A stretch of DNA of 64,000 nt from Lunularia cruciata (Eukaryota > Streptophyta > Marchantiopsida > Lunulariales > Lunulariaceae): contig OX419756.1 of NCBI GenBank assembly GCA_948567375.1, positions 34,424,333 to 34,488,332 of the forward strand. The letters are read 5' to 3'. The translations under genes and the position numbers were made by a program. The notes beneath the pieces were generated by a model. It saw only the letters and a list, made by a program, of their open reading frames with translations. It made no database searches and was not told where the DNA came from. Positions 15,776-61,720 of the stretch are shown in pieces. The stretch's first letter is position 1. Each line of letters starts with the position of its first letter.

Positions 15776-16170
15776 TCCCTTTTCATGTGTATGTGGACAC
15801 TTCGTCCATGGTCATCGGGGTTGTCTTAAGTCAGAAGGACGAAAAGAAGAAGGACTACCCAATGTATTATGCCAGCCGACAACTTTCAGTTTTTGAAAAG
15901 AACTATTCAACAACTGAAAGAGAAGCACTCGGAATGGTGTATGCCTGCAAGAAATTTTGTCATTATTTGTTGGGGTATGAGTTTGTCTTCTATGTTGACC
16001 ATTATGCATTGCCACATCTGGTCAAGAAGGCAAATTTATCGGGACAAATTGCAAGATGGATCTTGTTATTACAAGAATTCACGTATACTGTACAAGTGAG
16101 GAAGGGAGCTTCGCCTTGCGGACTTCCTGTCCAGGTTAGAAACTCAAGACCAGGAGTGGGAAATTGATGA
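15776..16170 (+). pseudogene. BL RNase H
   Basis: RNase H domain that degrades the RNA template during reverse transcription. It reads HVYVDTSSMVIGVVLSQ, then TEREALGMVYACKKF, then VDHYALPHLVKK. The catalytic Asp, Glu and Asp are visible in VDTS, TERE and VDHY. It follows the RT stop by a few codons. The end is garbled by a frame change near 16120. Confidence 0.85.
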
Positions 16171-16189
16171 TCGGTTCCCTGACAAAGAG

Positions 16190-17673: not shown

Positions 17674-17923
17674 CATAAGGCGAAGTACTCAGAAATGTCG
17701 TGTCAGCATACAATACGAAGTAAATTGTCTTCAGGTCAGGGGGAGCTCAACCCGAGGCAAAGATAGTCTAACAACCTTTCGTCGGGGCGAGAAATTCAAG
17801 AAGGGGCCATTTCAAAACTGGCGGCTCATACGCGCGAAGGTTGATTGACAGTGACAGGTGCATGCAGGAGGTGTGATTTCTCGGTAGAAACTCAAAGCGA
17901 CGGAAGACAAAGAAGTGCAACTC

Positions 17924-17930
17924 TATAAAA
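17924..17930 (+). promoter_or_regulatory. TATA-like box upstream of the LTR-encoded frame
   Basis: TATAAAA in the context CTCTATAAAAATCG, 165 bp before the conserved ATG at 18089. The equivalent place in copy D has AACTATAAAGTC. It is separate from the TATTTAAG box at 20639, so the LTR may have two promoters, one of them for the internal gene. This is inferred from sequence only. Confidence 0.45.
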
Positions 17931-18088
17931 ATCGAAACTGCAATGACGAAATGTCGAGCAATTTTCCTTCGCCATTGAGAAGTCGTCTTGCAGGTGATTG
18001 GGGAAAGGGAAGTAGAGTTGTACTCGGGTTAGTGCGCAAGGGAGAAGTCACGAGAGAGAAATCGAGAGACAGTAAGAAAGCAAAAGAG

Positions 18089-21861: not shown

Positions 21862-22740
21862 TGTTGTGCATATATACATTGTTATACAACATACATTGCT
21901 ATCAACATTTTACACTATAGAAGGACAATTCATCCAAAAGTCATACATAAACTCTAAAGTACCATAATAATCAGTTCAATACATACTCAAATCACACTCA
22001 ATTGGATTAAAACTCAATTCTCAACTCAATAATCTACTAACAATGGACATTGATTACAATCAAGCCACAATCACTCTTATTAAGAGATTCCAACTGATGC
22101 TTGCTGGCCTCTGTACACCATAGCCAAGAACTCAAAGGCTCAACATTAATAAATTTAACTCTCTGGAGTTGCACTTCAAAGGTATACCCCTCTATTAGAC
22201 ATAGATCTCTATCCTGAATGGTGCCACTAACGGCCCATTTGACAATGTGAATAGTGCAAGTGATGGTGGATCTTATGGTGTGATCAATAGCCCTAACACA
22301 AAATCTGCTCATCTTTAAGTTGTCTTTGAGCAACTACTATTATAATTCTAATTGCCAAGACTATCACTATAGTGTCTAAGTAACTAGCTTCAGCATTGGA
22401 TATGTTATTACAACTATCATTCTTATCTGCATTGCTACACAACATACAACAATATCAACATCATACAAAAGTCATATATAAACTCTAAAGTACCATAATC
22501 ACTCCCTTAGTTGGTAGTTAGGTCCCTCTAACTCTAAGTAGCCATCTCATTGAGACTTGAGATATGGGCTTATATCAAGTGCCACTCCATGTAAACAAAT
22601 TGCATTCTATAGCAAAAATCTCCTTAAAAATCTCCAAAGAACTCCATTGTGATGATGTACCCCAAACTCCAATTGTAACCACCAAGAACCTCCCACTAAT
22701 ATACCCCTAATTATGATAATTACACTAGCGGGGAAGGGCA
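21862..22740 (-). mobile_element. DM family, internally deleted copy with 3' LTR
   Basis: Minus-strand order: about 180 bp of DM leader (22740-22560, matching 40560-40760 of copy 1), then the conserved tail TTAGAGGGACCTAAC, then the compound LTR. The LTR consists of an outer repeat (about 22416-22501), a core (21974-22415, matching 49912-50320 and 55419-55799) and a second copy of the outer repeat (21862-21973). No gag, pol, methyltransferase or PHD segment is left, so the leader is joined to the 3' tail. This is the structure of a large internal deletion. Confidence 0.65.
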
Positions 22741-34900: not shown

Positions 34901-35085
34901 CTTGCAAATGAACTCACCCAAATGCCAATGGCAAAAAATTGGTGATGGAAGTCAAGATGAACCCTAAATTTTGGCCCATGATTCTTGCTGCTACAAAAAC
35001 AAATCCATAAATTGTATGTGCTCAATCATCCAAAGGCATCACCAACACCCAAGGACTTACCTTCCGTGATGCTAGGTTATGGATA

Positions 35086-36402
35086 TTGGATGACATGGAT
35101 CTAAGAACCACCATCCTAGCGGAATGTAATGATTCTGCCATTGTAGGTCACATTGGGGTGGACAAGACCTTGGATGTGGTTAAATGCCATTACTATTGGC
35201 CCAAGATGAGCAATGATGTGATGAAATATGTTTGGAGTGGCCTACTTTTTCAACAAAATAAGGCTTCTAATCAAGCTCCCATAGGAATCCTCCAACCTCT
35301 CCCCACTCCTACATAAAATTGGGAATAGGTAAGCATGGATCTGGTTTTTGAATTGCCCAAGACCACCTCTGGTTTGACTCCATCATAGTCTTTGTCTACC
35401 AACTCAAAAAAATGATTCATGTGCATCCTACTACCAAGGATGTGACTGCCCCGCAACTAGCACAATTGTACTTAGATGCAGCCTTTTCCCATCATGGTTT
35501 GCCTTGAGTGCTCATCATAGATAGAGGCACTTAATTCACTGGTTTGTTTTGGAGAACTCTTTGGTTTCTTCAAAACCAAATTGGCCATGTCCACAATTTA
35601 CCATCATGGACTGATGGACAAACAAAGAGGGAAAATTGTACTATTGAGGACATGCCTCAAAGCTTTACTTTGGATGAGCAAGAGAGGTGGGACACCTTAC
35701 TCCCATTGGTAGCATTTGCTTACAACAATTCAATGAATGCCTCTACACAAGTCACACCATTCTTTCTCATGTATGGAGAGCATCCTTTCACACCTTCAAG
35801 CTTGATGAAAGTCAGTTCAATGGCTACAAAGGTTGACATTGTCAATACTTTTGTTTCTAGAATCCAATAGGGTGTGGAGAACTCCAAGCATAGGTTGTAG
35901 ATCACTCAAAATTGGCAAAAGCAGTATGCAAATGCACACCTCCAACACATGGAGTTCAATGTAGGAGATCAAGTTTGGCTGTCAACTACCAACCTCAAGT
36001 TAGTTGGTCCTCATAATCTCAGACCCCATTTCATTGGACCTTTCTCCATCCTTCGTTGCATCGGTGCAGTGGCTTATCACCTTGAGGTATTACCACATAT
36101 GAAGACCCACCTAGTGTTTCATGTTTCTTTATTATTCTGATATGCTCCCCAACCATCCCACTTCTCTTCCATCCAAGAATTTTGACCTTGTCTAACACTT
36201 GTTGATGAGGCAGTATGAAGTCAAATGCATTTTCAAAAAATGTGTCCATGGTACTTGCCATCCACGTGTGGAATATCTGGTCCATGGGAAAGGAAACCCA
36301 CTATATGAGGCCACATGGAAGTCAATAGCCAACTTGACCAATGCATTAATGTTAGTTCAATCTTTTGAGCAACAACTTTGCAATGAGGACATTGCATCTT
36401 AA
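35086..36402 (+). pseudogene. CV2 integrase and chromodomain
   Basis: The zinc-binding part is IVGHIGVDKTLDVVKCHYYW. Core segments are WTDGQTKRENC and LLPLVAFAYNNSMNASTQV. The C-terminus is FNVGDQVWLSTTNLKL and HFIGPFSILRCIGAVAYHL. A chromodomain follows at 36199-36402, reading VEYLVHGKGNPLYEATWKSI. It ends before the polypurine tract AAAAGGAACGAGG. Confidence 0.82.
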
Positions 36403-39319: not shown

Positions 39320-39790
39320 GTTGTCATAACATTTGTAGAGTCAAAGCTAGATTGCTTGGACATTAGAGTAGGAGTGCTAGTAGTCAAAGGTATATGCAAT
39401 TACTCATAGACTACTTGTTGACGGTCAGATTTCATGTTCATGGTACTAATCACATGATGGGACCTACTATCACTTGCACCATTCATACTCTTGGTTGTAT
39501 TATAAGGAGGAATGTTAGGGTTGGAGACATAGGTCAAAATCAGAGGTATACCTTCAAAGTGTAGCTCTAGAGACCTCACTTCTTTGATGTTGAGCCTTTG
39601 AGTTCTTGGCTATGGTAGAAAAAGAACTAATGAGCATCACTTAGAGTCTCCTAGCTAGATTGGGTGTGGCTTGAATATAATTAGTGCCGAGTTGTTGGCA
39701 GATTGTTGAGTGAATGATCAAAGTACTAATCTGATTTGAGTTGATTCAAGTTGATGAAAAACTTATTACATTAGAGAAGTGAGAGTTAGG
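39320..39790 (+). repeat. DM copy 1 5' LTR remnant (core part)
   Basis: Matches the core of the compound LTR at 49912-50400. Shared pieces include TCATAGACTACTTGTT, GGTTGGAGACATAGGTCAAA and CTGATTTGAGTTGATT. The outer 110-bp repeats are not recognisable at either side. Confidence 0.65.
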
Positions 39791-39799
39791 AGGAAATTG

Positions 39800-40929
39800 G
39801 TTGTGGTGTAGGAATTGAGGGTGTTGGTGGTATCTCCAAGCTTGGTTGATATTTGGTACCTTGATTGCGGTTCAGATTTTCCTAAGAGTGATCATGTACA
39901 AAAATGTTGGCCAAATTTTGATGAGAATGGAGTCAATTTCACGCGATTGGCCAATTGCTTAGGAGGTGAAAGTATGGCCAATTTGGTGCAAGTTGAGCTT
40001 GAAATGCAAAATTGAAGGTGGAGTTGGGAACCCATACCCACAAATTAGAGATTTGGAGATTCCCATCTTTCTAATTTGGCTTGAGTAGAGATTTAGTGGA
40101 GAATTTGGTGGTCATCCAACTACACCAGATTTTATGTTGAATTTGGTGGAGGATTTATGTCAAATTTTGGCCAAAGGAAGTTTGATCCCCTTCTCAATGA
40201 TCCTTTTAGCTTAGGAAATAGATACATACTCCTATTATGTCAAATGTTAAATTGTGGTAGAGTCTATCTTATGTTAGTTTAAGAGATGAAGGGTTTTGTT
40301 TAGCCTTCTTGTGATTGGACTCTGTCTATTCTCTACTTCTTGTTTGTGCACTATGTTTGTGAGGTGCCCTAACTTTAGAGCACTGGTGCTTTGGTGTGCT
40401 CTTGATAGTGAGGTTACTTGATGACTAGTGAGACTACATGTGTTTCTATTTTGATGATGCAAAAAGTGACGGCTTGCAGACCTGAGAGTGCATGTTATGA
40501 TGACAGATTACAAGTCACTCTTTTCCATAGTGTAGTTGTTCCAATATTAGAGCTACATTAGTGGGTGATGTTCAGTTGGTGTTGGCACTTAGTGGGGTAC
40601 TTGCGGTAGTTACGATTGCAGTTTGAGTTACTTGGTCATGATGGAGTTCTTTGGGGGTTCTCAAGGAGATATCATGGTAGTATGCAATGGGTACACCCAA
40701 AGTGGCACTTGGTATCAACATGTATCTCAAGTCCTAGTGAGTGAGGAGACTCCAAGTTGGAGTTTGATATAGGGGCTAATTCAATTGAGAGTGCACTCGG
40801 TGTGTTTGCACCATTATTGTGGGACATGGATGAGATATATTGGACCTCCAAAGGCCCTTGATATTACTTTGGTATAATGGGTACCATTGAGTTGGATGAA
40901 TTTATCTAAGAGTTTGATAGTTAGTGTGA
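39800..40929 (+). other. DM leader
   Basis: Untranslated-looking leader between the LTR remnant and gag. 40560-40760 is shared with the deleted copy at 22560-22740. No domain was read. Confidence 0.5.
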
Positions 40930-42004
40930 TTTGTAATAGATACGTAACCCAACTTTGTTCACACCCTTCATGGCATGGAAAAGGTTATTTGAGCACTTAG
41001 AGGGTCTATCAATAGACAAATATCATAAGTTCAAGAGAGCTTGCTTGGAGGACATTGAGCTATGGAGATAGTATTGGTCTCCAAACTACATCTCTATCAT
41101 TTTAGGTTCAATTTCTAGGGGTATACTATAGCACCTCCAAGTTCTAGTACTACTAGTGTTGGTGGATCTATTGGAGATGGTGGTACTACAAGCAAAGGTA
41201 CCACTATAGGAAGTGATGTAGTACCAAGGTTTAACCCCATGGTAGAAATCTTCAAATGGTTGAGGTAGAAGCACCAAGGAGTGCGGATTGACAAGCTAAG
41301 GAGCTTGTAGGAGTTCCAATGGAAAGCTTAAGAAAGCTTATGCAAGGCATACACTCGCATGAGATAGCTGATCAATTTACTCAAGGAATTACTAAGACCT
41401 AAGCAGTCCAATTTTTCTATGGGATCTTAGACATGGAATTACAACATAGAGTACGTGATGTTACATTATTATAGGCTACTTCACCTACTTTGGCAATAAT
41501 CTTTGGTTTGGCTTAGCACATTAAGCTCAACATGGTGGAGGAGAGAGTGGTAACATTTGGACTTGGTGGAGAGACCTCATCCATAGTTGTCACTTCTTGT
41601 TGAGTACAATAGAGTGCACTATGCCATGTTGGCTTTTGAGAGCAGAGTGGACAGCCCAAATCTTATGAAGGAGATGGAAGGCTTACTGAATCTAGATCCT
41701 TACCTTCATGTTGAGGTCAACAATAGCTAGTGAGTGGTGGTATGGCTTGTTGGACTTGTGGTAGACTTCACCATAAGAGAGATTGCACTTAGGGTGGCAA
41801 ACTTGATACCTCTAGGGCATCATAGCCAATATAAAGAGTGTGACCATTACCATAGATTTGGTCACATTAGTGATTGGTGCTTTGTCCTTCATCCAAAGTT
41901 ACGGAGTGGTAGGGTTGCTATGGCAAGTGTAGAGAAGCTCTAGGTCATGGAGGACAAGGTGGTAGAGGATCTACACTTGATAAGGGTGCAATACCTATCC
42001 TTAC
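40930..42004 (+). pseudogene. DM gag with zinc knuckle, copy 1
   Basis: The gag-like frame reads FMAWKRLFEHLEGLSIDKYH near 40970, then a helical segment, and near 41730-41860 a zinc-knuckle region: CWTCGRLHHKRDC and, in the next unit, CDHYHRFGHISDWC. The second knuckle has lost one Cys to Tyr. The frame runs to GAIPILT, where BL LTR E begins. Confidence 0.7.
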
Positions 42005-43850
42005 TTTGAAAACCCAACAAATATCACTTTTGCGGTAATCAGGTAAGTAAAGTTCATTCACATGGAGATACAAGTCAAAATTGGTCAAATACAAAGCAAA
42101 GTAACAATGTAGTTCTTCTTGATTGCATCTTTAATCTCTCATGTAGCAACTACACCCAAAAGAGAATAAAAAGCACTGATTACAATCTCATCATCCATAA
42201 TCACAAATCTTTCAAATCTTTCCAAATAAACTTGATTGTGATGATTCAATCCCAAAAATGGCTAATTCACTACAAAACAACTTTGCCTCAAAATTGTGTT
42301 CCACCCCTCCACTAAAGGCACAACTTCCTTTATCAAAATTGCTTCACATCAACTAAGCAATGCACTCACAAATGCAGAATACTATCAACACTACAATTCC
42401 TCTTAGATTTGTCAAGGCATTGCTTTGATTGCACTTCACTCAAGATCAAACACACAAAATCAAGATCAAGGTTGTAGAATTCAACTTCCAACACTAACTA
42501 ACTTGGACTTTGAATTTCTCCCAACACTCATAGACACAAAAACATATAATCAATACTTGGAATTAAGCTCAAGCGACAAGCACTAATGCACAACACTTCA
42601 CTTTATCTATTCTCAAGATTATGAGCATTGAATAACATAAGACCGTGAATGCCTCTTTTAAATAGGCAGAGCACTTGATTGTTATCTAACTTCCTAAACT
42701 GATTCCTAACAACTCTACTAACCTACAAATCCAAAATGATAGACCACCTCTACCTCTTCTTATCTCAAAATTTGTCCTAATCCAATCCGATGTCTACTTC
42801 CACTTTGGCTTCCAATTGCAATGATCTTCCTATCACTTCTTTGTCTTTGGGTCTACCTAATTCTCCTCCTAACTCCTAAATTCTATTTCTACTATTACTT
42901 CACTACAAACTCAATTGCATTGGTGGGTAACTTATCTAAATCTTTATCTCTTGACCCACTCTTCTCTAATGTATCCAAAGACACATGCTGTTTGATCTTG
43001 CAATTTGGGTTCATTCAATATAGCTATTTTCTCTTCTAATATTACTTTGTTTATCTCCCAACCCACTCTTCTCTAATGTCTCAGGTAACTAATCCAAAGA
43101 CACCTGTTGTCTAATATTGCAATGTGGGTTCATTCACTATAGCTATTTTCTCTTTTAATTCTATCTTATCTTCAATTAGGACTGACATTGAAGTCAAGTG
43201 CATCCTAACTACCTCTTCTTTCTTTGTCTTAACTACTTCAAATGCTTCAAATATCTCACCCAAAGACTCATACATCTGATGTTTGACTACCTTGGATTGG
43301 GTCACCTTTGTCTTGAGGAGAAGTATCTAAACCCAAAATCGTGTAAACCCAAAGTCATATAAGTCCAAAGTTGTATAGACCCAAAGTCACATAGACCCAA
43401 AGCAATGTGGAACCAAAGAACCTCAACCCACAGTCACTTAACTACTCCATACATCTACTACAAAAACTTCAAATGCTTGTAACTTCTGCTATAAACCTCC
43501 AAACTTTGCAATTTTGATGGCAACAAAAAGCCTTGAATGAGATGCTTCCAATGAGATATAGCACACATGATTAAGACATGTTGTCATTGGAAATATGGTC
43601 CCCATAGTAATCTTGACTTGTAACCTCCATTTAGCTGCAAAGAAACCCTCCTTTAATCCAATCCTCCTTTAGGTCTGCCCTCCTTTGGGTCTGATCCAAT
43701 GAGTCCTTCTTTCTCTTACATGAAGTCAACTTTCTTAGCCAGATCAAAACACATGTTTCTCCTTGTTTCTTCTCCATTTGGATTCAATTTGGTTTCAACA
43801 ATGCACTTCTTCGTCAAAACTTTTCAAAAATGAAAAATGTGGGTACCACA
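42005..43850 (-). mobile_element. BL LTR copy E, internally deleted
   Basis: Minus-strand LTR with start TGTGGTACCCACA (43850) and a decayed end (42005). Only the two end regions survive, because the central coding part is missing. The TATTTAAAAGAG promoter box and R region (42650-42660) match copies B-D. 43333-43420 has about five tandem units of ACCCAAAGTCACATAG. A short coding remnant lies at 43111-43305. It separates DM gag from PR. The flanks CTTAC and ATATA do not match. Confidence 0.8.
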
Positions 43851-44339
43851 ATATAGTGATGGTTACATGGATTGAGTAGTTGGAGCAAAGATTGGCTAGC
43901 ATGGCCATTTCTCAAAGGAGATCAGATTTAGGTGTTGAGGCTTCCACCTCTTACGTTGGTGATAGAGATGTCTTGGACTTCATGTGTAGAGCAACATAGG
44001 TAGATTTATCTACCGTAGTGACTAAGAGTGTAGAACATGCTCCAAAGCCTAAAGGAGCATCAATGGAGTTGGATCCATAGAGAGGAGAGGTTGGTAGATA
44101 GGTCAAGCTTCCTCAATCTTTCACACTCTTTGAGGCACTACAAAGTGTCTATGGCTCCTAGACACCCATATGCAGGTGTGGTAGGTGATGATGGGGTGCA
44201 TGATATACTACTTGCTAGTCAACCACTTGCTACTACACCAATTGAGTCTAGCTTGATGTTGGAGGCGTGCAGTTGATTATGCACTTTCTTTTATTGTCAA
44301 CAAGTGACATGTTTACATTGGGAGTTTATCTAGCTCTAG

Positions 44340-44990
44340 TGTTCTGATTGGCTGCCACACTTTGTGAGAGTACAGATGATGTGGTTCTTGCTTCTAAAGC
44401 AAAGGTGGTTGATAGTGGAGCTGACTTGAGTGAGGAGCATGGGATCCGCTCAAAGACCTATAGGTTATGGCAAGTAGCAACAACTAGATTGGGGGAGTTA
44501 CCAACTAGACCTACCTTTGAGCAAGTGCGGTTCACACCTGGACTTGTCCTATTGGATAACTAGAGGGGGATTTTCTATTTTCTATTTTTTGGGACTTTTA
44601 AGGAAGGTCTATATACCACAAAGGGTCTTATTAGACTCTAGTGCGTAGCTCCTTATGTTGGGGAAGGCTATAATTATAAGTTTGGAGCTACAAAAGACCA
44701 ATGTGAAGATGTATCCATTTCAAATCCTGATATCTTTAGGCCAAGGTTCTACACAATCCACCACATGAGGAGAGCTTGTTATCTAGATGCAATCAAGTCA
44801 TCCAATTGATAGTTCTATGGTGAGAGCTCAAGTCATTGTGATAGAAGTTGAGTCATATGTTGTGTTGATTGGTGGAGCAATATTATACCCCATGGGTTTT
44901 AATATTGATTATTGGGAGGAGACAACCTCCTATAGACCAGGTTGGCAGTCAAGTGAGGGATGAGTATGTTGCCTACCAGTACACTTTAGT
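44340..44990 (+). pseudogene. DM aspartic protease, copy 1
   Basis: Aligned with 61267-60713. The frame at 44348-44563 reads LGELPTRPTFEQVRFTPGLV. After frame changes come the equivalents of the active-site and GGAMLY blocks (GGA near 44870, then TATACCCCATGGGTTTT). The active site itself has decayed (copy 2 DSGAQ is disrupted near 44636). Confidence 0.65.
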
Positions 44991-45344
44991 ACTAGCAATC
45001 TTAGCTCACTATAGTAAGGACCACGGCCTCAATTCCAGCTTTTAGTGGTTTTCTACTTGGCTTGGTAACTTATTGAGGGGAATGTGCATGGAAAGGATAC
45101 TCTAGTACCAAAAGTAACCACTCAGATTTGGAGTACAAGTGAGATCAATCCATCCACCTTGGATGTTCCATTATGGAGTTGAAAGGAGGCATTGAAGTAG
45201 CATGCAGATCAATTGGTGCAACAAGCTTGGAGTAGAGCCCTTGTACCACCAAGGGACCAGTGTGAAGATGAGCCTCTAAAGTCTATCATGTTGGCATCTT
45301 TGGATACCACACTCATTGCTTGGCAATATCTTATAGAAGGAGTA

Positions 45345-46275
45345 TGTTTTTTGGAGTTGTTTGGTGGGATTAGCACTAGAATACCATAAGTATTATAGGT
45401 AAGTATCCAATTACAAGGTATTTTTATGTGAGGAGAGATTAGACTACTAGGCAAGTCTCTCATGTGGCATACTTGGGTTATCTATATCCTAAGTTATTAC
45501 CAATGTTAGTAGTCAAGAGTTATTACAAGATCCTACTAGCAGAAATTTCTTTGTTGGGAGTATAGGATCTAAAGAGACATGGTCCTATTCATCTAGTGAT
45601 TTTTGGAAGGCCATGTCAAGGATATACACATGCTCACCAAGTTCAAGGTCTTTAGGATCTCCATTTTGTTTTGGGAGATATTATGTATACTAAAATATCT
45701 CCAAGTTCATGAGTCTATTTTTCCAACCCACATATTGGAGAACATCCCTTTGATGTACCTGGGTGATTCTCATACCTGGATGGTGGAAAGTACACATCAA
45801 GTCCATTCTTAGATGGGACCTACTGTGTTGTTGGATGTAGCCAAAGTGGGATCACATGCTCATCATTTTTTTCTTTGGTGGACAAACTTCTTACCCAAAG
45901 AGGTTCTACATTTTGCTTATGATAGGATTCAACAATAGACCACCTCACTATTGATGACAGACATCTTGGATGTTGGGCGTTAGTCTTAAATGGTGGTAGT
46001 GGCTGATGGGTAACCTATGGTAATGGTGAAGCTTTTTGGACAGGCTACAGTTACTTTACCCACACTTATGAGTTTCCCAAGCTCTCATACTTTTTGAGAG
46101 AGAGAACCTAGAATTTTTTGGGACTCTTAGTTACAGCAATTAGTGGAGCCCAACACCGATGAGAAAGAGTGGTTGATGAGTTTTTGCATCGGTATTACTG
46201 CTATTATAATATTATTAGAGGTACCAAAGCATCAAGTGTTAGGTTAGGTTATGTACCTTAACTATTTGACCTAGA
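45345..46275 (+). pseudogene. DM C5-cytosine DNA methyltransferase, copy 1
   Basis: Second copy of the methyltransferase domain, between PR and RT. Motif I reads GVCFLELFGGIST. Motif IV reads LVIFGRPCQGYTHA, with the Pro-Cys-Gln codons at 45611-45619 and Trp changed to Arg just before. Motif VI reads HILENIPLM. Motif VIII reads DVAKVGSHAHHFFLWWTNF. Motif IX reads NTDEKEWLMSF, and motif X appears as HQVLG followed by MYLNYL. Stops and frameshifts are many, so it is inactive. It keeps the motif IX-X segment that copy 2 has lost in part. The domain is C5-MTase by motif order; substrate specificity cannot be read. Confidence 0.82.
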
Positions 46276-48000
46276 TTATGAGCCTTGGCTTGGTAGAGCA
46301 ACATAGGATGCGCTTGATAGGCATCACCAATGAGACATTTGTGAGCTTTATGCCTTTCAAATCAATTTAGGCACATGTTGGGAACAATGGACCGCGTGAG
46401 CAAGGTAGTCTTGGGACACAACTAGTAGTTACTAATGAGAGAGGTCTACTTGGTATCCATCTAGGTGAGTGTTTTCCACTTGAGTTACACCGTTGGTCTA
46501 CTTGGAATGCAACTAGAGGACGTATGGAGCTTGCAGCCAGATCAGAGAGAATTTTCTACACTAAAGTTGGGACCTCTAGTGGGTGGAGGCATGACATTAC
46601 TGCTCCCAAGGGCCTAGTGTAGCAGCCAATCAGTACATCTTCCACTCTTGCATTAGTTACAAAGAATAATTGAGAGCTAGAAGGACTTGGTATTTGGATT
46701 GAATTGACTAGCAATACACCAGTTTTTTTATGTCCTTACAAATATAGTAACATGGAGACAATATTGATTTAGAGCCAGAGTAGAGATCTTTTTGAGGCTA
46801 GGTTGGTAGAGATTTTACATGGAGAGTATACATCTACTACAATGATGGCAACCAAGCAGGACAACTATACAAACATGCGGATATGTGGAGATTTTTGTCC
46901 TATCAACTAATAGATTAGGGCTGATGGGTATGCCATGCCTACATCAAAGGAGATCTTTGATGCAATTGGGCATGCAAAGGTCTTTGGTACTTTGGATTTT
47001 CAAGCAAGATATCATCAATTGCCAATCAAGGGGAGGATAAGTCCAAGATAGCCTTTTAGGCTATTGATCCTCATAACAAAGCTATATTATATTAGTGGAG
47101 GTTCTTACCATTTGGGTTAAAGAATGCTCCTACCAAGTTCTAGAGTGTCATGGACCAGCAAGATTAGATTTTACTTGATGCTATATTGATGACATTTTGG
47201 TCTACAGCATTATTGTGGAGGAGCATGAGAGGTATTTTCTGGAGGTGTTTGAGAGATTGAGATCTCATGGACTCAAATTACATCCTAAGAAGTGTAGGTT
47301 ATTCCATGAGCATGTTGAGTATTTAGGTCACCCTATCTACCCTAGAGGACTTGGTTTTTAGACCAAGGTGAAATCTATTGCACATATTCCTTGGCCTATG
47401 GATGTGAGCAAAGTGCAAGCATTCCTTGGGTTGGTGAACTTATATTGCTGCTATGTTAGAGGATTTAGTGCCATTGCCAAGGCCTTGATAAAGCTAACCA
47501 AGCTTACAAAGAGTAGTGTTGGGGAGATGAGCACAAGTGAGCTTCTATAGAGCTCAAGGAGAGGTTAACATCTGCTCCTATTCTTAAAAGACCAATCAAA
47601 GGATGACCATTTTATGTTCACACTTATTGGAGTACATTGGGGCTTGGAGTAGTGCTCACCCAACATGATAATGAAGGGAAGGAGGTTGTGGTGGCTTATG
47701 CTAGTTGCTCCAACAATTTAGCAAAGGTGAAGTATAGTTCATATGATGGAGAGTGATTAGTAGCAGTATGGATAGTAACACATTTCTGATGTTACCTATT
47801 TGGTAACCCCTCCACTCTCATCATTAATCACCAACTATTGAAGTGGTTGATGGAGTTTGACAAGCTTTCAATGTAGCTTGCACAATGGGCTCTAATTTTA
47901 CAAGAGTATGATTTCATGATTATTCATAAACTTGGAATGGAAACCATGATGTAGATGGGTTGAGTAGAAACCCATGTCCTAGCTTGTAGGATCAGACCGG
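46276..48000 (+). pseudogene. DM linker, reverse transcriptase and RNase H, copy 1
   Basis: After a linker matching copy 2 (LVEQHRMRLIGIT), RT pieces read RICGDFCPIN, KEIFDAIGHAKVFGTLDF and HPKKCRLFHEHVEYLGHPIY-like fragments in several frames. SIAHIPWPMDVSKVQAFLGL and FSAIAKALIKLTKLT lie near 47368-47550. RNase H follows to about 48000. The active-site YIDD region near 47180 reads DDIL in a broken frame. Confidence 0.75.
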
Positions 48001-49110
48001 AGCACAATAACATGGTAAGATAGATGAAAAGATGGTGCGAAGTTGGCATGCATTTACCTTTTTATGTTTATTCTTTAAGACTTTGGTGGTATTTCTCTTA
48101 GCACATACCAAAGGAGTTATTGAGGTCATAGATCTAGAGGGTAGATAGTGGCATAGTTTAGCAAGACATTCATGATGATGTCTTAGAGATGGATTATCTT
48201 TGCATTGGTGTTGTAGGTGGCACAGTTGGGGCCAAGGAGAGAGACCGTGTTCTTTAGCAAGCCATGCGGTTTTGATTGGAGTGCATACACCTTCTTTGTG
48301 TATGGGAGGATAGTAGAGTGCAAGTGGTACCACTTCCATTCCAAAGACCACAATTGGTCCATCATGCTCATGAGGAGCTAGGAAATTTTGCAGTAAAGCA
48401 TACTTATAGCTTACTGCATAATCATTATTAGTAGTGTGATATATAGCAATGTATAGCAACTTGTTGCAAGGTGCCAAATGTGTGGTTTGTGACCAAGTTA
48501 GAACATCATTCAATGCTCCTATGCCATAGTTACACCCATTACTTATCATAGGATAGGATTATTGTTGAAGTTTGGACTTTGTTGGACCTTTACCATTGAT
48601 AGGAAGATATCATTGATATGTTTTGGTTATAGTAGAGCACTTCTTCAAATGGATTGAGTTGGTGGTACTTCCTAACAAGTCTAGTGAAGGGACAACTTGT
48701 TCATCCTTGGATCGGGTTCTCATTCATTTTGGTGCATTAGCTAGGGTTTTGACTGATCAAGGTATAGAGTTCTTGGGAGAGTTTCAAGTCTTGTGTGACA
48801 AGACTCTGATTAATCATTGTACTACCTCCCAAGATCACCCTAAGGCAGATGGCTTAGTAGAGAGAGTGGTTCAAACAATGAAGAGAGGATTGCAAAAGTA
48901 TGGTTTGCAGAGAGGCCACTTGGGACATCAAGATCTCTAATTACCTTGGTTGGCCATGGACTATCAGTTCAGCCGGCAAGCCTCCTTCTTTCCTTAATTT
49001 CTACTCTATGGATGAGATCAAAATTTACCTACAGCCATTTGTCAAGATGCTATAGTAGTTTTGGACTTGGATGATCTAGATGTATGAGTGAGCACATGTT
49101 CTCAATGGGT
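48001..49110 (+). pseudogene. DM integrase, copy 1
   Basis: Integrase with H...H and C..C parts near 48360-48500 and a clear core at 48623-48940: MVIVEHFFKWIELVVLPNKS, ARVLTDQGIEFLGEF and HPKADGLVERVVQTMKRGL. The second Asp and the Glu of the DDE triad are visible. The frame ends before LGHQDL, and the matching copy 2 continues to DLDEPN. Confidence 0.8.
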
Positions 49111-49339
49111 AGAGATCTTTTGGAAAGTGATGTCATTGGCCATTGAGAACTTGGAAATTTCCAATAATTTCCAATTTTTCACTATACTAATATTTGAGAA
49201 GGAAGCTATAGACTTGGAAATTTCCAATTTGTCACTATGCTACTATTTGAGGAGGAGGCTATAGATCCTTGATATGTTGATTTCATCTAGGTGACTATGT
49301 GTATCTACAATAGATAACACCAATGACATTGATGTTACT

Positions 49340-49680
49340 ACATGCCGCATTATCTTGAGAGTGCATGAGATTTTGCCTTCTTGAGCCCTTGTCTTGGAAG
49401 GACGTGATGGCATTTTTTGGAAGGATCATGTGGGCAATTGTGCACCATGCCACCTCCCAAAAATTGATGGTACTATGGACCCAAGCTTGGCACTTGTACT
49501 TGTAGGCTTGTGGTGTATGTTATGAGGCTCCTTTGGTGGAGTTGTCATTATGTTAGTGTGTGATAGCTATTTGAGAGATATCATATGGCATGTTTGACTC
49601 CTCTCCTCATGGTGGTCCCTCATGGATAATGGTTATGTCCTAGGTGTACTTGACCTATAGCTAGTTCACCCATTTATGTG
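49340..49680 (+). pseudogene. DM PHD finger and preceding domain, copy 1
   Basis: Reads GRDGIFWKDHVGNCAPCHLP and DGTMDPSLALV, then a decayed PHD finger at 49514-49647. The first Cys is present, the second is a stop, LVCDSY has lost one Cys, WHV keeps the His, and WLCPRC keeps the last two Cys. The same architecture is intact in copy 2, so the PHD belongs to the family and not to one copy. Confidence 0.78.
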
Positions 49681-49817
49681 GTATAGATTGCAGACATGTG
49701 ACTAACGATGGGGCTTGATAGCACCCGGCTTCCTGATCTTTGCACACCATAAGGAATACCATATACTTGGAGTATATAGTTATCTAGAGTTAGAGGGACC
49801 TAACCGTCAACTAGGAG

Positions 49818-50516
49818 TGCAATTATAGCATTTTAAAGTCCATATATGACTTATGTGTGAGTTGTGCTTCTATAGTGCATGATGTTGTGAGCAATGTATA
49901 TATGCACAACACTTATCACAACATTTGTGGTGTCAAAGCTAGATTGTTCAAACATTGAAGTAATATTGTTGGTAGTTAGAGGTATTTTGGCAATTACTCA
50001 TAGACTACTTGTTAACAAAAAATATCATGTCTAGGGTATTGATCACATGGTGGGACTCACCGTCACTTGCTCTATTCAAACCATTGGTTGTGCCATTAGC
50101 AAGACCATTAGGGTTGGAGACCTAGGTCAAAATAAGAGGTATGCCTCCAAAGTTCAACTCCAAAGAGCTCACTTCTCAGATGTTGAGACTTTGAGTTCCT
50201 AATTATGGTGGATAGAAAGCTAGTGAGCATGACTTGGAGTCTCTTAGCTAGAGTGTGTGTGGCTTGATTGTAATCAATGCCTAGTTGTTGGTAGATTTTT
50301 GAATGAATTATCAAGTACTGATCTGATTTGAGTTGATTTGAGTTGATGAAGGATTGATTATTCTAGAGGAGCAATAACCAAGAAGAGGAGGCAATAACTT
50401 TCTCCTCTTGATTGTGGCATTTTAGAGTTCATGTAGACTTATGTGTCAATTGTGCTTTTAAAGTGTAGGATGTTGACAATGATATGTATTGTGTAGCAAT
50501 GTATATATGAACAATA
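49818..50516 (+). repeat. DM copy 1 compound 3' LTR
   Basis: Preceded by the conserved tail AGAGGGACCTAACC. It consists of an outer repeat (49818-49911), a core (49912-50408) and a second outer repeat (50409-50516, starting TGATTGTGGCAT). The outer repeats are about 65-70 percent alike by eye. The same three-part layout occurs at 21862-22501 and 55310-55900. Confidence 0.72.
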
Positions 50517-55309: not shown

Positions 55310-55900
55310 TGTTGTGCGTATAGACATCGCTACACAACATACATCGCTGTCAACATCATACACTATAGAAACACAACTCACACATAAGTCATACATAGAC
55401 TCTAAAGTGCCACAATCTGCCAACAACTGGGCACTGATGACAGTCAAGCCACACCCACTCAAGCATAGAGAATCCAGGTGATGCTTGCCGGCCTCAGTCC
55501 ACCATAGCTAGGAACTCGAAGGCTCAACATCAGAGAAGTGAGCTCTCTAGAGCTCACTTTGAAACTATACCCCCTGGACTCAAGCTAGCTCTGAAACCTT
55601 AATGGTCCCATTGACGGCACACTTGATGGTGCGAATGGTGCAAAGTGACAGTGGGCCCCACCGTGAAGTCAGTACCCCAAACACAAAATCTAACCGTCGG
55701 AAAGTAGTCTTTGAGAAACGGCTAAAATAACTCTAACTACTATCACTGGAACTCCAGTGTACGAGCATCTAGATGCGGCACTACAAATGGCGTGACAACT
55801 ATTGTGCGTATATACATCGCTACACAACATACAGTGTTGTCAACATCATACACTATAGAAGCACAACTCACACATAAGTCATACATAGACTCTAAAGTGC
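55310..55900 (-). repeat. DM copy 2 compound 3' LTR
   Basis: Outer repeats at 55310-55418 and 55800-55900 share CATCATACACTATAGAA and TAAGTCATACATAGACTC. The core 55419-55799 lies between. On the minus strand the outer repeat runs from GATTGTGGCAC to GCACAACA. A 17-bp duplication (TGGCGGTTAGGTCCC) lies at the junction with the tail, at about 55901-55938. Confidence 0.75.
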
Positions 55901-56083
55901 TGGCGGTTAGGTCCCCCCTAGCTGGCGGTTAGGTCCCTCTAACTCCAGATAGCCATCTACTCTAAGTATATGGTATACCCTCTAATGGGCAAAGATCAGG
56001 AGGCCGGGTGCTATGGAGCCCCATCGTTAGTCGCCTGTCTGCAATCTATACCATATAAAGAATGAACTAGCTATAGGCCAAGT

Positions 56084-56377
56084 ACATCTAGGACATAACC
56101 ACTGTCCTTAAGAAACCACCGTGAGGGGAGGAGTCATACATGCCATATGCCATCCTCTTGAACAGCTATCACACACTAACAAAGTAGCAGCTCCACTAGA
56201 AGAGCCACATAACATACACCTCAAGCCTGCACGTATAAGTGCCAAGCTTGGGTCCATAGTACCATCAATGTTTGGGAGGTGGCATGGCGCACAATTGCAC
56301 AAATGATCCTTCCAAACAACACCATCACGTCCTCCTAACACAAGGACTCCAGATGGCAAGACCTCGCGTACTCTCAA
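56084..56377 (-). pseudogene. DM PHD finger with upstream domain, copy 2
   Basis: The minus-strand frame reads GRDGVVWKDHLCNCAPCHLP, DGTMDPSLALIRAGL and then a PHD finger at 56218-56084. The eight ligands are in the order C4HC3: CMLC, CDSC, H in WHMAC, that Cys, and WLCPRC. The spacing is C-2-C-11-C-2-C-4-H-2-C-14-C-2-C, typical of PHD fingers, which read histone H3 tails. One stop (TAA at about 56108) falls between MTPPLTVVS and GQWLCPRC. It lies downstream of the integrase. Whether it is fused to the integrase or made separately is unclear. Confidence 0.85.
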
Positions 56378-56575
56378 GATAGTGCGGCCTGTAGAAACAT
56401 CAAGTGTTGTCGGTGCTGTCTGCTATAGATATACATAGTCGCTTGGATGAAATCAACGGATCAAGGGTCTATAACCTTCTCCTCAAATGGTAGCATAGCG
56501 TAAAGTATCTCTATGCTGAGCAATTGCCAAGTTCTCAAAGGCCATCGGCATCACTCTTCAAAAGATCTCTGCCCG

Positions 56576-57600
56576 CTAAGAACATGCGCTCATCCATATA
56601 TTGGGTTCATCCAAGTCCAAAACTATAGTAGCATCTCGACAAATGGCTGCAGGTAAATCTAGATCTCGTCCATAGAGTAGAAAGTATGGAGAGAAGGATG
56701 CTAAGGAGGCTTTCCGGCTGAACCAATAGCCCATGGCCAACCAAGGTAACTGGAGATCCCAATCTCCCAAGTGGCCTCTCTGCAAACCATACTTTCGTAA
56801 TCCTCTCTTCACCGTCTGAACCACTCTCTCTGCTAAGCCATCTGCCTCAGGGTGATCTCGAGATGTAGTATGATGATCAATCAAAGCCTTGTTACACAAG
56901 ACCTGAAACTCCCCCAAGAACTTTGTACCCTGATCAGTCAAAACCTCAGCTAGTGCACCAAAATGACTAAGAACTCAATCCAGGAACGAGTAAGCTGTCC
57001 CTTCACTAGACTTGTTAGGAAGTGCCACCAACTCAATCCACTTGGAGAAGTGCTCCACCATCACCAAAACATACCAATGATGTCTCACAGTCAGCGATAA
57101 AGGTCCGGCAAAGTCCAAACTCCAACGGTAACCCAATCCCATGATAGGTAATGGGTGTAATTGTGGCGTAGGAGCATTGAATGATGCTCTAACTTGGTCA
57201 CAAACCACACATCTGGCAACAAACTGCTGTACCTTGGTCTGCATACCGTGCCACCAATAATGACTTTGGAGTAAGCTATAGGTATGCTTTACTCCAAAAT
57301 GTCCTAGCTCCTCATGAGCATGACAGACCAACTGTGGTCTCTGTGATGGAAGTTGTACTACTTGCACTCTACCATCCTCCCATACACGCAAAAGGTGTCT
57401 ACCTTCCAATCTGAAGCGTCTGGCTTGCTGAAGAACACGGTCTCTCTCCTTGGACCCAACTGTGCCACCCACAACACTAGTGCAAAGATAGTCCATCATT
57501 AAGACATCATCATGAATGTCTCGCTGAATTGTACCAATATCTTCACTCTCTAGATTTGTGACCTCAATAACCCCTCTTGTATGTGCTGAGAGAGATACCA
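56576..57600 (-). pseudogene. DM integrase, copy 2
   Basis: Zinc-binding part: HAHEELGHFGVKHTYS and ARCVVCDQVR. Core: WSLDFAGPLS (first Asp), VLTDQGTKFLGEF (second Asp), HPEADGLAERVVQ (Glu). The C-terminal part is LPWLAMGYWFSRKASLASF and PYFLLYGRDLDLPAA. The two open stretches (57850-56975 and 56941-56576) are in the same frame and separated by a stop from a CGN-type codon, because copy 1 keeps Arg there (LDRVL). The SPYFLLYGR block differs from the usual Athila/Tat and chromovirus integrases. Confidence 0.88.
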
Positions 57601-58080
57601 CCAAAGCCTCTACAAATATACACAGAAAGGCCGATGCATGCCAACCTGGCACCATCTCCTCATTTGTCCCACCATGCCAACGTGCTCCGGTCTGATCCTG
57701 CTGGCTGGGACATGGGTTTCTACTCAACCCATCTGCATTACGGTTCACCACTCCAGGTCTGTGAACAACCGTGAAATCATACTCCTGTAAAATCAGAGCC
57801 CATCGTGCAAGCTTCCTTGAAAGCTTGTCGGACTCCATCAACCACTTCAACGGCTGATGATCAGTGATGAGAGTGAAGGGGTTACCAAATAGGTAACATC
57901 AGAAATGTGCTACTGCCCAAACTGCTGCCAAGCACTCTCCCTCATATGAACTTTGCCTCCACTGAATTGTTGGAGCAACTAGCATAGGCCACCACAAACT
58001 CCTTCTCCTCATCATCATGTTGGGTGAGCACCGCTCCAAGCCCCAACATTCTCCAATCAGTGTGAACCTGAAATGGTCAT
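57601..58080 (-). pseudogene. DM RNase H, copy 2
   Basis: The upstream part, after the RT connection domain, reads GLGAVLTQHDDEEKEFVVAY. The terminal part is MKWLMESDKLSRKLARWALI and then VVHRPGVVNRNADGLSRNPC, the usual end of a Ty3 RNase H. Frames change near 57950. It is followed by a roughly 100-residue spacer before the integrase. Confidence 0.8.
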
Positions 58081-59060
58081 CCCCTGATCGGTCTCCTCAA
58101 AATAGGAGCAGATGTCAACCTCTCTTTGAGCTCTACAAAAGCTCTCTCTTGCTCATCTCCCCAACACCATTCATGTGTAAGCTTGGTCAGCTTTGTCAAG
58201 GCCTTGGCAATGGCACTAAATCCTCTAACATAGCGGCGATAGAAGTTTTCCAACCCAAGGAATGCTCGCACTCTACTCACATCCGTAGGCCAAGGAATAC
58301 GTGCAATAGCCTCCACCTTGGTCTGCTAAACACCAAGTCCTCCGGGGTAGATAGTGTGACCCAAATACTCAACCTGCTCGTGGAAGAATCTACACTTCCC
58401 AGGATGTAGTTTGAGTCCATGAGATCTCAACCTCTCAAACACCTCCAACAACTGTCTCTCATGCTCCTCCACAGTAGTGCTATAAACCAAAATGTCATCA
58501 ATATAGCACCGAGCAAAATCCAATCCAGCTAGGATCCTATCCATGACCCTCTAGAACTCAGTAGGAGCGTTCTTTAGCCCAAATGGTAAGAACCTCCACT
58601 GATATAACACATCCTTGCAGTGAGAATCAATAGCCCAAAATGCTGTCTTGGACTTATCCTCCTCCCTGATCGTCAACTGATGATATCCCGCTCGAAGATC
58701 CAAAGTACTGAAGACCTTTACATGCCCAATCGCATCAAAAATCTCCTCCGGTGTAGGCATGGCATACCAATCAGCCCTAGTCTATTGGTTGATAGGACGG
58801 TAATCTCCACACATCCGCCTATCTATATAGTTGCCATGCATATCTTTCTTGGCTGGCATCACTGTCGCTGATGCATACTCTCCATGTGAAATCTCTACCA
58901 AACCAGCCTCAAAAAGGTCACTACTCCGGCTTTGAATCAATGTCCTCTCCATATCACTATATTGATAAGGACGTTAGAAAATTGGTGTGTCGCTAGTCAG
59001 CTCAATCCGTATACCAGGTCCCTTTAGAGCACCCTAATCCTTCATACTGAAGGTAAAAAA
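58081..59060 (-). pseudogene. DM reverse transcriptase, copy 2
   Basis: Segments in order: LVEISHGEYASATVMPAKKD, RRMCGDYRPINQ, MPTPEEIFDAIGHVKVFSTL, RFLPFGLKNAPTEF, then the active site ARCYIDDILVYS (YIDD at 58505-58494, intact), KLHPGKCRFFHEQVEYLGHT, ARIPWPTDVSRVRAFLGLEN and LTKLTKLTHEWCW. A few single stops interrupt it (58551 region and others). It is the best RT in the window for placing the family in a tree. Confidence 0.9.
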
Positions 59061-59540
59061 ACTCGTGTGACTCCTCAAGAACCTCCAAACCCTCCGTCTT
59101 ACCTCTCCAGTAAGCTTGGGTCCAAGATCTGGCTCCCAAGTATCCTTTATAACTGTAGTAGGAGTGGAAGACGTACTGACTCACTGCTACACTGGGCCCT
59201 TGGGAGCGATAGTGTCATGCTCCTGACCACTAGAGGTCCCAACCTCTGTGTGAAAAACTCCCTCCACTCTGGCTGCAAGCCCCACACGTCCTCTAGCTGC
59301 ATCCCATGTGGACCAAGGGTGTAATCCAAGTAGCACACGCTCACCTGGATGGACTCCAAGTAGACCACTCTCCCTAGTAGCTATTGGATGTGTCCCAAGA
59401 ATACCATATCCACTCGGTCCATCACCCCTAGCATGTGCCTGAATTGTCTTGATAGGCACAGGGCTCACAAGTGTCCAAGTGGTGATGCCTATCAAGCGCA
59501 TCCTACGCTGCTCTGCCAAGCCAAGGCTCACAATGCAGGT
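59061..59540 (-). other. DM linker between methyltransferase and RT
   Basis: Open minus-strand stretch with GLAEQRRMRLIGITTWTLVS and GERVLLGLHPWSTWDA. No domain was recognised. It is shared with copy 1 (LVEQHRMRLIGIT). It could be a target-recognition or structural extension. Confidence 0.55.
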
Positions 59541-60410
59541 CAAACAGTTCAAGTCCATAGCATGACCCATCGTCCACTCTCTCTCATCAGCATTGGGCTC
59601 CACCAACTGTTGTAATTGTGAGTCCCAAACAAGTCCAGGTCCTCCCTCTTGAAAAGCATGAGAGCTTGGTAAACTCATGAGTGTGGGAAATGCAGCTCTA
59701 GGCTATCCAACTAGGTTCACCACTGCCATAGGTGACCTATCAGCCACTACCACTGTCTGAGACTGACGCCCAACATCCAAGATATCATCAACAAGGATGT
59801 GGTCAAGTCGATGAATCCCATCATAAGCGCGCTATAGAACCTCTTTGGGTAAGAGGTTTGTCCACCAAAGACAAAGACGATGAGCTCGTGATCCCACTCT
59901 GGCTGCATCTAACAATACAGCAGGTCCTATCCAAGAATGGACCTGATGTGTACTCGCCATCACCCTATTGTGAGAATCACCCATCAAAGGAATGTTCTCC
60001 AAAAGGTAAGTTGGAGAAACAGACTGATGAACCTGGAGATGTCGTAATATCTATAACATCTCCCAAAACACACCAGAATGAGGATCCTGAAGACCCAATC
60101 CTCTGCCAGCATGTGTATATCCCTGACACGGCCATCCAAAAATCACCAAGTGAATAGGCCCTTGTCTCTCTAGGTCATGCACCCCCAGTAAGGAAATGTC
60201 TCATGGTAGGGCCTTCTGGTAACCTCTGACTGCTGACATCGGTAATAACTCCGGATACCAATAGGCCAAGTGTGCCACATGATGTAGAGAGACTCGCCTA
60301 GCAGTCTCATCTCTCTCTACATACAAGTACCTCTATACTCGGATACTCGCCTGTAACACCGCAGCTAGTCCGGTGATGATCCCACCAAACAACTCCAATA
60401 GGCATATCCC
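59541..60410 (-). pseudogene. DM C5-cytosine DNA methyltransferase, copy 2
   Basis: DNA (cytosine-5) methyltransferase domain encoded between protease and RT. Motif I: LLELFGGIITGLAAVLQA (AdoMet site). Motif II: YLYVERDETARRV. Motif IV: IHLVIFGWPCQGYTHAGRG, with the catalytic Pro-Cys-Gln codons at 60131-60123. Motif VI: YLLENIPLMGDS. Motif VIII: DAARVGSRAHRLCLWWTNL. Motif IX: ADEREWTMG. Motif X: HAMDLNCL, with about 40 residues lost between IX and X relative to copy 1. The domain is about 290 residues, short for a DNMT, with a small target-recognition region. The stops are few: TAG in motif II, a TGA and two TAG. The role is inferred: methylating element DNA. Confidence 0.88.
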
Positions 60411-60712
60411 CTCTACTGGATATTGCCAAGCTATGAATGTGGTATCCAGAGGTGTCAAAGCAATTGCCTATGGAGGCTCATCCTCACACTCATCTCCTGA
60501 TGGTATGAAGGCTCCACTCCAAGCTTGCTGCACCAACTGATTTGCATGTTGTTGCAATGCCTCCTTTGAACTCCACAATGGAACATCAAAGGTGGATGGA
60601 ACAATCCCACTCATACTCCAAAGCCGAGTGATCTCTTATGGTATTGGAGTATCCTTTGCATGGGCGTTCCCCTCCAACAAGTCACTAGGCCAAGTAACTG
60701 CACCAGTGAAAG
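60411..60712 (-). other. DM linker between protease and methyltransferase
   Basis: The minus-strand frame contains LWSMSGIVPSTFDVPLWSSK, QHANQLVQQAWSGAFIP, an acidic GDECEDEPP and TTFIAWQYPVEG, running in frame into methyltransferase motif I. It is matched in copy 1 (LDTTLIAWQYLIEG). Confidence 0.6.
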
Positions 60713-61267
60713 CTAAAACTGATGCTGCCATGGTCCCAAACTATAGTGAGCAAAGACTACCACTACTGAAGCGTACTGGTAGGCGACAACCTGTCCCTCA
60801 CTAGACTGCCAACCAGGTCTATAAGAGGTTGTCTCCTCCCAATAGTCAATGCTGAAACCCATGGAGTATAACATTGCTCCCCCAACTAGCACATCATATG
60901 ACTCAGCTATTGTCGCAATAGCCTGAGCTCTCACCACTAAGCTATCAATCAGATGACCAGGCTGAACGTGGACAACAAGCTCTCCACGTGTGATGTACTG
61001 TATCAAACCACCACCTAGAGATGTCTGGATCTGAAATGGACACCTCTCCACATCGGTCTTTTGTAACTCTAGACTGACAATTGTAGCCTTCCCCAACATA
61101 AGGGGCTGCGCACCAGAGTCTAACAAGACTCTCCGTGGTGTATAGACCTTACCTGAAGGTCCCACCAAACAAAAAATCTCCCTCTGGTTATCCAATAGGA
61201 CAACACCAAGTGTGAACCGTGCTCTCTCAAAGGCCGGTCTAGCTGGCAACTCCTCCTGTCTAGCCAC
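60713..61267 (-). pseudogene. DM aspartic protease, copy 2
   Basis: 184-codon open frame with FCLVGPSGKVYTPRR, the active-site block VLLDSGAQPLMLGKA (Asp codon at about 61120), CPFQIQTSLGGGLIQYI and the closing block SYDVLVGGAMLYSMGFSIDY. It is intact over the whole domain and is the best protease in the window. Confidence 0.85.
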
Positions 61268-61357
61268 TGTTGCTTGCCATAAATCACTGGTTGCTGAACG
61301 GATCCCATGCTCCTAAACCAAGTCAACTCCACTACCAACCGCCTCTGCTCCAACTGC

Positions 61358-61720
61358 TCAATCGAGTAGCCATAGCTGTGTCAGAAGTAAGGGTAGGTAC
61401 TGCACCCCTACTAGGTGTAGATCCTCTACCACCTTGTCCTCCATGAATTGGAATTCCCCTACTACCTGCCATAGCAGCCCTACCACTCCGTAACTCCGGG
61501 TGTAGGTCAAAACACCGGTCACTAGTATGACCAAATCTGTGGCAGTGCTCACATTGCCTCTGTGTTGGCTATGATGCACCAGAGATATCAGGTCCGCTGC
61601 CGTGAGTACACTCTCTCCAATGGTGAGGTCCACCACAACTCCAACAAGCAACACCACCACTCACTGGCTGCTGCAAACCCAAAAATGAGGGTAAGGGTCT
61701 AACTCCACTTGGCAGCCGGT
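61358..61720 (-). pseudogene. DM gag C-terminus with two zinc knuckles, copy 2
   Basis: The minus-strand frame reads CWSCGGPHHWREC and then CEHCHRFGHTSDRC, two CCHC-type zinc knuckles as in nucleocapsids. They are followed by LHPELRSGRAAMAG and a Gly-rich tail. Alignment with copy 1 continues to about 61710 and then stops, where unrelated (LINE) sequence begins, so the N-terminal gag is missing. Confidence 0.8.

Follow-up and report, generated by a model that had tools for sequence, protein, structure and literature searches.

A 5'-truncated Ty3 retrotransposon carrying a C5-cytosine DNA methyltransferase (DNMT) domain lies on the minus strand of contig OX419756.1 of Lunularia cruciata. The window analyzed here is the whole stretch of 64,000 nucleotides from position 34,424,333 to 34,488,332 (G000:C2:34424333-34488332), and it was compared with 566 Mb of the same genome. 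The DNMT sits between the protease region and the reverse transcriptase (RT) of the second open reading frame (ORF2, from 59186 downwards), as the initial annotation of this DNA had proposed (Table 1). The claim that a C5-DNA methyltransferase domain is built into a Ty3 element thus holds, and the identity and anatomy of this Ty3-DNMT element are practically certain. The window copy has lost everything 5' of the gag CCHC region, including terminal repeat A1, and an internal part corresponding to ORF1 residues 513-687. Within its ORF2, Pfam matches for integrase and RNase H fall at 56975-57898.

The methyltransferase domain of the window copy is recognizable and broken. On the minus strand, motif I (ELFGG) is located at 60395-60381, the Pro-Cys-Gln codons exactly where they had been annotated (60131-60123), and the ENI of motif VI at 59999-59991, followed by motif VIII (AHRLC, 59885-59871) and the motif X region (AMDLN, 59561-59547). 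Seven motifs had been described in order in several minus-strand frames. The strand and order were borne out, but one tblastn alignment spans 60797-59190, so the DNMT stretch is a single frame, and motif IX is damaged, 63 bases (21 codons) being absent from the tblastn span with the loss of the residues between 'MG' and 'AMDLN'. Five stops interrupt 60410-59541 (60335, 60203, 60053, 59834, and 59705), and the second Arg of motif VIII is replaced by Cys (AHRLCLWW vs AHRLRLWW in the ORF1 protein P0001). The motifs are therefore not all intact, and the copy is probably dead because of the stops, the codons lost across motif IX, and the motif VIII substitution. Described earlier as the best copy, it is the better of the two DNMT copies found in the window without being intact. 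With X at the stops, the stretch still matches the Pfam C5-methyltransferase profile PF00145 (E = 5.8e-6; 26.4 bits; cut-off 22), and the DNMT of copy L010 is 84% identical to it over 386 columns. A chance assembly of motifs was ruled out by the profile match, the alignment to other copies, and the DNMT3 fold.

Table 1. Features of the Ty3-DNMT family in the window (positions within the 64,000-nucleotide stretch)
Feature	Position	Strand	Evidence
Ty3-DNMT copy, 5' truncated	55310..61713	-	blastn vs L012: three collinear blocks, 91-95%; tblastn of ORF1 and ORF2
gag zinc-knuckle region, partial	61356..61712	-	tblastn ORF1 390-512; zinc-knuckle profile at ORF1 409-467
Aspartic protease region	60725..61348	-	tblastn ORF1 688-890; ORF1 protease profile maps to 715-859
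DNMT3-like C5-cytosine methyltransferase domain, broken (5 stops, 21-codon deletion across motif IX)	59511..60413	-	limits = residues 1000-1321 in P0001
UAG codon, then CAG, dividing ORF1 from ORF2	59187..59189	-	aligned junctions
ORF2: RT - RNase H - integrase - PHD finger, decayed	56081..59186	-	tblastn of P0002: 92% over 1-413, 89% over 408-1037
B1 repeat	55804..55900	-	95% to B
A2 repeat, 387 of 452 bases	55414..55800	-	93% to A over 387 bases
B2 repeat = element 3' end	55310..55415	-	95% to B, 106 bases
Second, older family member	39322..50507	+	same architecture; A1 39322-39744, ORF1 40578-46619, ORF2 46632-49650, B1 49828-49899, A2 49916-50342, B2 50412-50507
DNMT domain of second copy, decayed, with stops	45216..46367	+	tblastn 50% over 398 columns, E 7e-103
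Third terminal A-B fragment of the DNMT-element family	21862..22387	-	B 82%, A 71%

Element copies and encoded proteins

The DNMT is a regular component of a repeated family. Searching the genome with PF00145 scored 123 of 2161 candidates; judged by matched range, these appear to be mostly members of this Ty3-DNMT family with a few host genes, and the majority lie inside open frames of at least 150 amino acids (aa). The element DNMT was present in 18 of 20 fetched places (tblastn). Two loci were excluded from copy counts: L025, without a match to the element DNMT, and L026, which is the same place as L003 and reads as a host CMT/DNMT1-like exon. The ORF2 search scored 44 of 66,091 candidates, every one at 97-100% identity; candidate numbers in these searches are not copy numbers. 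Uninterrupted frames exist elsewhere in the genome, with ORF1 open over 1428 aa in two fetched copies and ORF2 open over 1037 aa in two. In the other copies read, the DNMT lies directly upstream of the same UAG codon, so it is not an unlinked insertion peculiar to the window. Bursts of Ty3/Gypsy elements have been described for the L. cruciata genome (PMC9985172, seen in part).

The encoded proteins follow the Ty3/Gypsy (Metaviridae) order of gag-protease, then RT-RNase H-integrase. ORF1 protein P0001 matches PF00145 at 30.5 bits (curated cut-off 22), and the intact ORF2 protein P0002 contains Pfam domains RVT_1, RNase H, integrase, and PHD (PF00628; E = 2e-10); the integrase (PF00665; E = 1e-12) is accompanied by an H2C2 zinc finger. 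The Gag match in P0001 is weak (12.3 bits vs cut-off 24.1). Pfam calls no protease in P0001, where protease and zinc knuckles were placed by profiles built from ORF1 itself; it does find an aspartyl protease in the same region of relatives P0015 and P0067. Neither an ADD nor a PWWP domain was found in ORF1 by Pfam.

Terminal repeats and insertion

The ends of the element do not have the form of two full-length long terminal repeats, one at each end. At 15 loci that include the 5' repeat, some partial, the end consists of A (452 bp) alone, and none has an adjoining B. Of the 17 3' ends read, 16 have B-A-B, including that of a neighboring copy in L027; the element of L027 itself has shortened A2 and B2 repeats and lacks B1. 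The elements of L010 and L022 are cut by the ends of the fetched stretches. The resulting A1...B1-A2-B2 arrangement of split direct repeats is a PAT/DIRS-type layout. The element termini are TGTC...GACA, with the TG...CA ends of integrase-type insertion, and 4-bp target duplications (GAGG, CATA, TCTT, AACC, AGGA, and ACCG) flank six of the seven copies with both ends read, L013 being the one without.

The B1/A2 junction of L012 has the form GACA-NN-TGTC, resembling joined element ends. Its sequence, GACAGCTGTC, looks like a palindrome-like joint of the element's two ends, as in a circle opened at an inner site. Such a joint suggests that this integrase-bearing element has an unusual step at the cDNA or circle stage. 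Inspection by eye found no TGG-type tRNA primer-binding site after A1 in L012 (ATTA, then CATCAGAGAAGTG). Kimura two-parameter (K2P) distances between A1 and A2, some of them from partial pairs, are 0.007-0.036 in 11 of 13 copies, with 0.069 in L023 and 0.110 in L013; most sampled insertions are therefore young by that measure.

UAG junction and predicted expression

ORF1 and ORF2 share one frame and are separated by UAG CAG in all 21 aligned junctions (19 fetched loci plus the two window copies, one 18% diverged). The following codon is YYA in 19 of these; the exceptions are L021 (CTT) and the window copy under study (TGA). UAG CAR YYA is the readthrough context of the tobacco mosaic virus type (PMC2754532, seen in part), and readthrough of the UAG is very likely from this conserved context. 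The DNMT would then be made at the level of Gag because it stands on the gag side, upstream of a conserved leaky-type stop, and the RT-RNase H-integrase-PHD part would be made only by readthrough. Since most metagenomic relatives with both domains carry the DNMT on the pol side, the enzyme dose would differ between branches.

Enzyme class and selection

The element encodes a real, conserved, retrotransposon-borne DNMT3-type domain. Residues C96, E139, N140, R179, R181, and G304 are invariant in an alignment of 12 diverse DNMT family members, in which the catalytic Cys (motif IV), Glu-Asn (VI), RxR (VIII), and motifs IX-X occur in order. The nearest folds of the predicted DNMT model are DNMT3A and DNMT3B, several in complex with CpG DNA, at about 19-26% identity in structure alignments. 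DNMT3 chains give the best matches by both sequence and fold, and the motif order is un-rearranged, which separates the domain from DRM. The host's own DNMT3 exons likewise read PCQ and are 27-30% identical to the element DNMT over 113-181 residues.

The DNMT apparently has been under purifying selection in the sampled copies. Across 19 loci (18 of the 20 fetched places plus L007), the mean pairwise ratio of nonsynonymous to synonymous change (dN/dS) was 0.35 for the DNMT (18 loci usable), compared with 0.25 for RT (18), 0.30 for RNase H (18), 0.34 for protease (17), 0.54 for integrase (18), 0.21 for gag (15), and 0.42 for the C-terminus with PHD (18). These values suggest that the DNMT is constrained about equally to the core enzymes of the element. 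Its ratio was 0.33 for changes common to at least two copies and 0.50 for single-copy changes.

Relatives of the element

Three protein searches returned 44, 24, and 153 relatives, the best 120 of the last being listed. Named hosts among the matches listed are Marchantia polymorpha, M. paleacea, Calypogeia fissa, Riccia sorocarpa, Sphagnum fallax, S. troendelagicum, and S. tenellum; the remaining relatives are metagenomic or environmental sequences. The earlier description of a seed-plant-like genome must be dropped, as the named relatives come from liverworts and Sphagnum and rule out a seed-plant host. Eleven aligned relatives are 30-75% identical to the element DNMT. No Klebsormidium nitens protein is named among the 44, 24, and best 120 of 153 matches, and a scan of viral contigs with P0015 gave 12 pattern matches with no relative among them.

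The position of the DNMT differs among relatives. The domain-order set comprised 37 rows with RT-RNase H and a sufficiently long DNMT, shorter rows being dropped and this genome being represented by ORF1 of L010 plus ORF2 of L012. The DNMT precedes RT in 5 rows and follows RNase H in 32; a PHD finger occurs in 27 of the latter, and the other five stop short of the PHD position. In the RT tree (midpoint rooted), the two arrangements are split with labels of 98 and 100, which re-rooting may move by one node. Many inner clades agree between the RT and DNMT trees, and several poorly supported nodes differ.

Metagenomic relatives P0025 (1680-1991) and P0042 (2150-2487) have a long extension C-terminal of the PHD finger with Rossmann-like stretches ('VVTAPP' and 'ITSPHF'). 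By eye the extension recalls amino-methyltransferases; that of P0025 has no Pfam match.

Other features of the window

Three more distant Ty3-type pol regions lie at 14725-17526 (+), 26501-24703 (-), and 33706-35858 (+), with 24-34% identity to ORF2, and tblastn of ORF1 against the window lists no match beside them. Long open frames at 17888-19309 (+), 8350-9087 (+), and 29132-29965 (+), of 473, 245, and 277 aa, have no Pfam match at E = 0.01.

Discussion

The window copy is likely a dead member of a Ty3 lineage in which a DNMT3-type C5-cytosine methyltransferase was captured and then retained as a working part. In the mechanism we propose, the protease would free the DNMT within the particle, where the enzyme would methylate the element's own new double-stranded cDNA. 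Element copies would thus enter the genome pre-methylated, which could conceal them from host recognition or curb the element's own expression. Self-methylation of cDNA is a serious but tentative candidate for the role under selection. The PHD finger at the integrase C-terminus probably steers integration to chromatin with unmodified H3K4. Its nearest solved relatives include the PHDs of CHD4, KMT2D/C, KDM5, DPF3, AIRE, BAZ2, and UHRF1, several of which read unmodified H3K4 or H3R2. Chromoviruses carry a chromodomain at the integrase C-terminus, and because the PHD finger occupies that position, guided integration can fairly be inferred.

The enzyme could instead work in trans, with the host genome or competing elements as its target; released into the nucleus at Gag level, it would methylate host chromatin and so alter the epigenome to the element's benefit. 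The DNMT location upstream of the UAG and the PHD finger in the same element would suit such a role, and the DNMT elements of Symbiodinium coincide with an unusual methylome; K. nitens, however, has a land-plant-like methylome despite its Ty3-DNMT3 element (PMC5890265, seen in part). A trans effect would also benefit every element and should be hard to select in one family, and we regard this role as unlikely. Less probable still is retention for a function unrelated to DNA methylation, for example to bind or methylate the element's RNA or the tRNA primer, or to play a structural role within Gag. RNA methylation was raised by De Mendoza et al. for the LINE version (PMC5890265), and the unusual repeats, together with the lack of a visible TGG-type site after A1, leave room for special priming. 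Against it, the predicted structure most closely resembles the folds of DNMT3A/3B, several of which contain bound CpG DNA, and the C5-methyltransferase motifs are conserved in diverse relatives.

Recent uptake of a host DNMT gene fragment by a single element, with no function attached, would account for the broken state of the window copy, and other retroelements do transduce host exons. This explanation is scarcely tenable and has been largely refuted: the DNMT recurs in the other copies read, the aligned relatives have diverged widely, the family is spread over liverworts, Sphagnum, and metagenomes, host DNMT3 is only distantly similar over its short aligned range, and dN/dS is well below 1. 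Family divergence, dN/dS, and the low identity to host DNMT3 thus rule it out.

The simplest reading of the trees and domain orders would be one capture, long co-inheritance, and one relocation of the DNMT, but the elements may also have exchanged the domain or captured related enzymes twice. Extended further, this history would start from a single DNMT3 capture by one ancient Ty3-like split-repeat lineage, which would have retained the enzyme to the present day in liverworts and peat mosses as well as in many probably algal environmental hosts. It would probably include the Klebsormidium element, whose 'independent' capture would become a branch of the lineage. The DNMT would have moved between the gag-protease side, upstream of the leaky UAG, and the gap between RNase H and integrase, usually paired with PHD, so that the transposon would methylate itself and possess both a writer and a reader. 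We consider this extended history possible but somewhat doubtful.

Several observations weigh against the reading of a captured and retained working enzyme. The 21 junctions come from related copies and are not independent. Because most loci were selected for their long frames, dN/dS is biased downward, and shared stops number eight in the DNMT vs zero to four elsewhere, the DNMT also being the longest region counted. Chromatin targeting by PHD is based on sequence resemblance alone. The DNMT tree, rooted by a long branch on host DNMT3, its only cellular DNMT, recovers the RT-tree grouping with low support values (26 and 71). The two trees conflict on P0046, which is placed beside P0043 for RT (100) and with the liverwort side for DNMT (99); this weakens the single-capture history. 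Finally, a published yeast assay saw no activity of KnitGypsy-Dnmt3, the closest relative, a result its authors judged inconclusive (PMC5890265).

The existence of this family presents a paradox, as plants silence transposons by cytosine methylation, yet a repeated transposon makes and keeps a DNMT3-type enzyme. The 2018 paper on the alga and dinoflagellates left the purpose of element DNMTs open (PMC5890265). Close relatives in Marchantia polymorpha, a tractable model plant, make the role of the enzyme directly testable. Five DNMTs have been counted in M. polymorpha: MET, two CMT, and two DRM (PMC5784723, seen in part). Gene annotation may be affected as well, since several Marchantia and Sphagnum models look like transposon genes. 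Mp_8g17980, Mp_4g09160, and BDL97_09G086500 are retroelement-like proteins annotated publicly as Marchantia or Sphagnum genes, and Mp_8g17980 is among the models apparently named DNA (cytosine-5)-methyltransferase in UniRef.

Comparison with known systems

A retrotransposon-borne DNMT3-type domain is of a kind already described in 2018 from an alga. As far as literature searches tell, what is new is the occurrence in bryophytes, the DNMT position on the gag side of a leaky-type UAG, its pairing with a PHD finger, and a clade broadly represented in environmental sequences. Among the open-access papers listed by these searches, no title or abstract opening reports DNMT retrotransposons in bryophytes, and none is mentioned in the available parts of PMC6453930, PMC10952607, PMC5784723, PMC9985172, and PMC12344493. 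The last assigns DNMT3 to 'LTR Copia and DIRS' elements in streptophytes and dinoflagellates with reference to the 2018 paper, although that paper itself says Gypsy.

The charophyte parallel mentioned in the initial annotation exists as KnitGypsy-Dnmt3 of K. nitens (PMC5890265). Compared by published description only, both elements combine Ty3/Gypsy pol domains with an un-rearranged DNMT3-type domain under purifying selection, and the DIRS-like repeats given in a figure legend for KnitGypsy-Dnmt3 resemble A1...B1-A2-B2 here; Gypsy domains, a DNMT3 domain, and DIRS-like repeats are thus all found in our element. The DNMT of KnitGypsy-Dnmt3 was reported to lie in the Pol polyprotein frame, whereas ours is in the gag-protease frame upstream of the UAG. 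In K. nitens, where the acquisition was described as independent, copies were fewer than in Symbiodinium, and the term 'PHD' is absent from the main text of that paper; the pol of our element terminates in a PHD finger, and liverworts and Sphagnum are the hosts named for its family. SymbioDIRS-Dnmt3 and SymbioLINE-Dnmt of Symbiodinium also encode a DNMT within a retrotransposon, and the DIRS version methylates CG in yeast, but they are DIRS and LINE elements rather than Ty3, and the paper finds them unrelated to the Gypsy element (PMC5890265).

With DNMT3A/DNMT3B and plant DNMT3, the element enzyme shares the fold, the motif order I to X, and the PCQ or PCN/EN/RxR chemistry; it differs in being embedded with gag-protease and in having no ADD or PWWP found. 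DIRS/PAT elements share the split direct repeats, but Pfam finds no tyrosine recombinase in P0001 or P0002, and our element has a DDE-type integrase (rve), TG...CA ends, and 4-bp target duplications. The Ty3 chromoviruses likewise place a chromatin-reader-type domain at the integrase C-terminus, where the element described here has a PHD finger in place of the chromodomain, together with a DNMT and split repeats.
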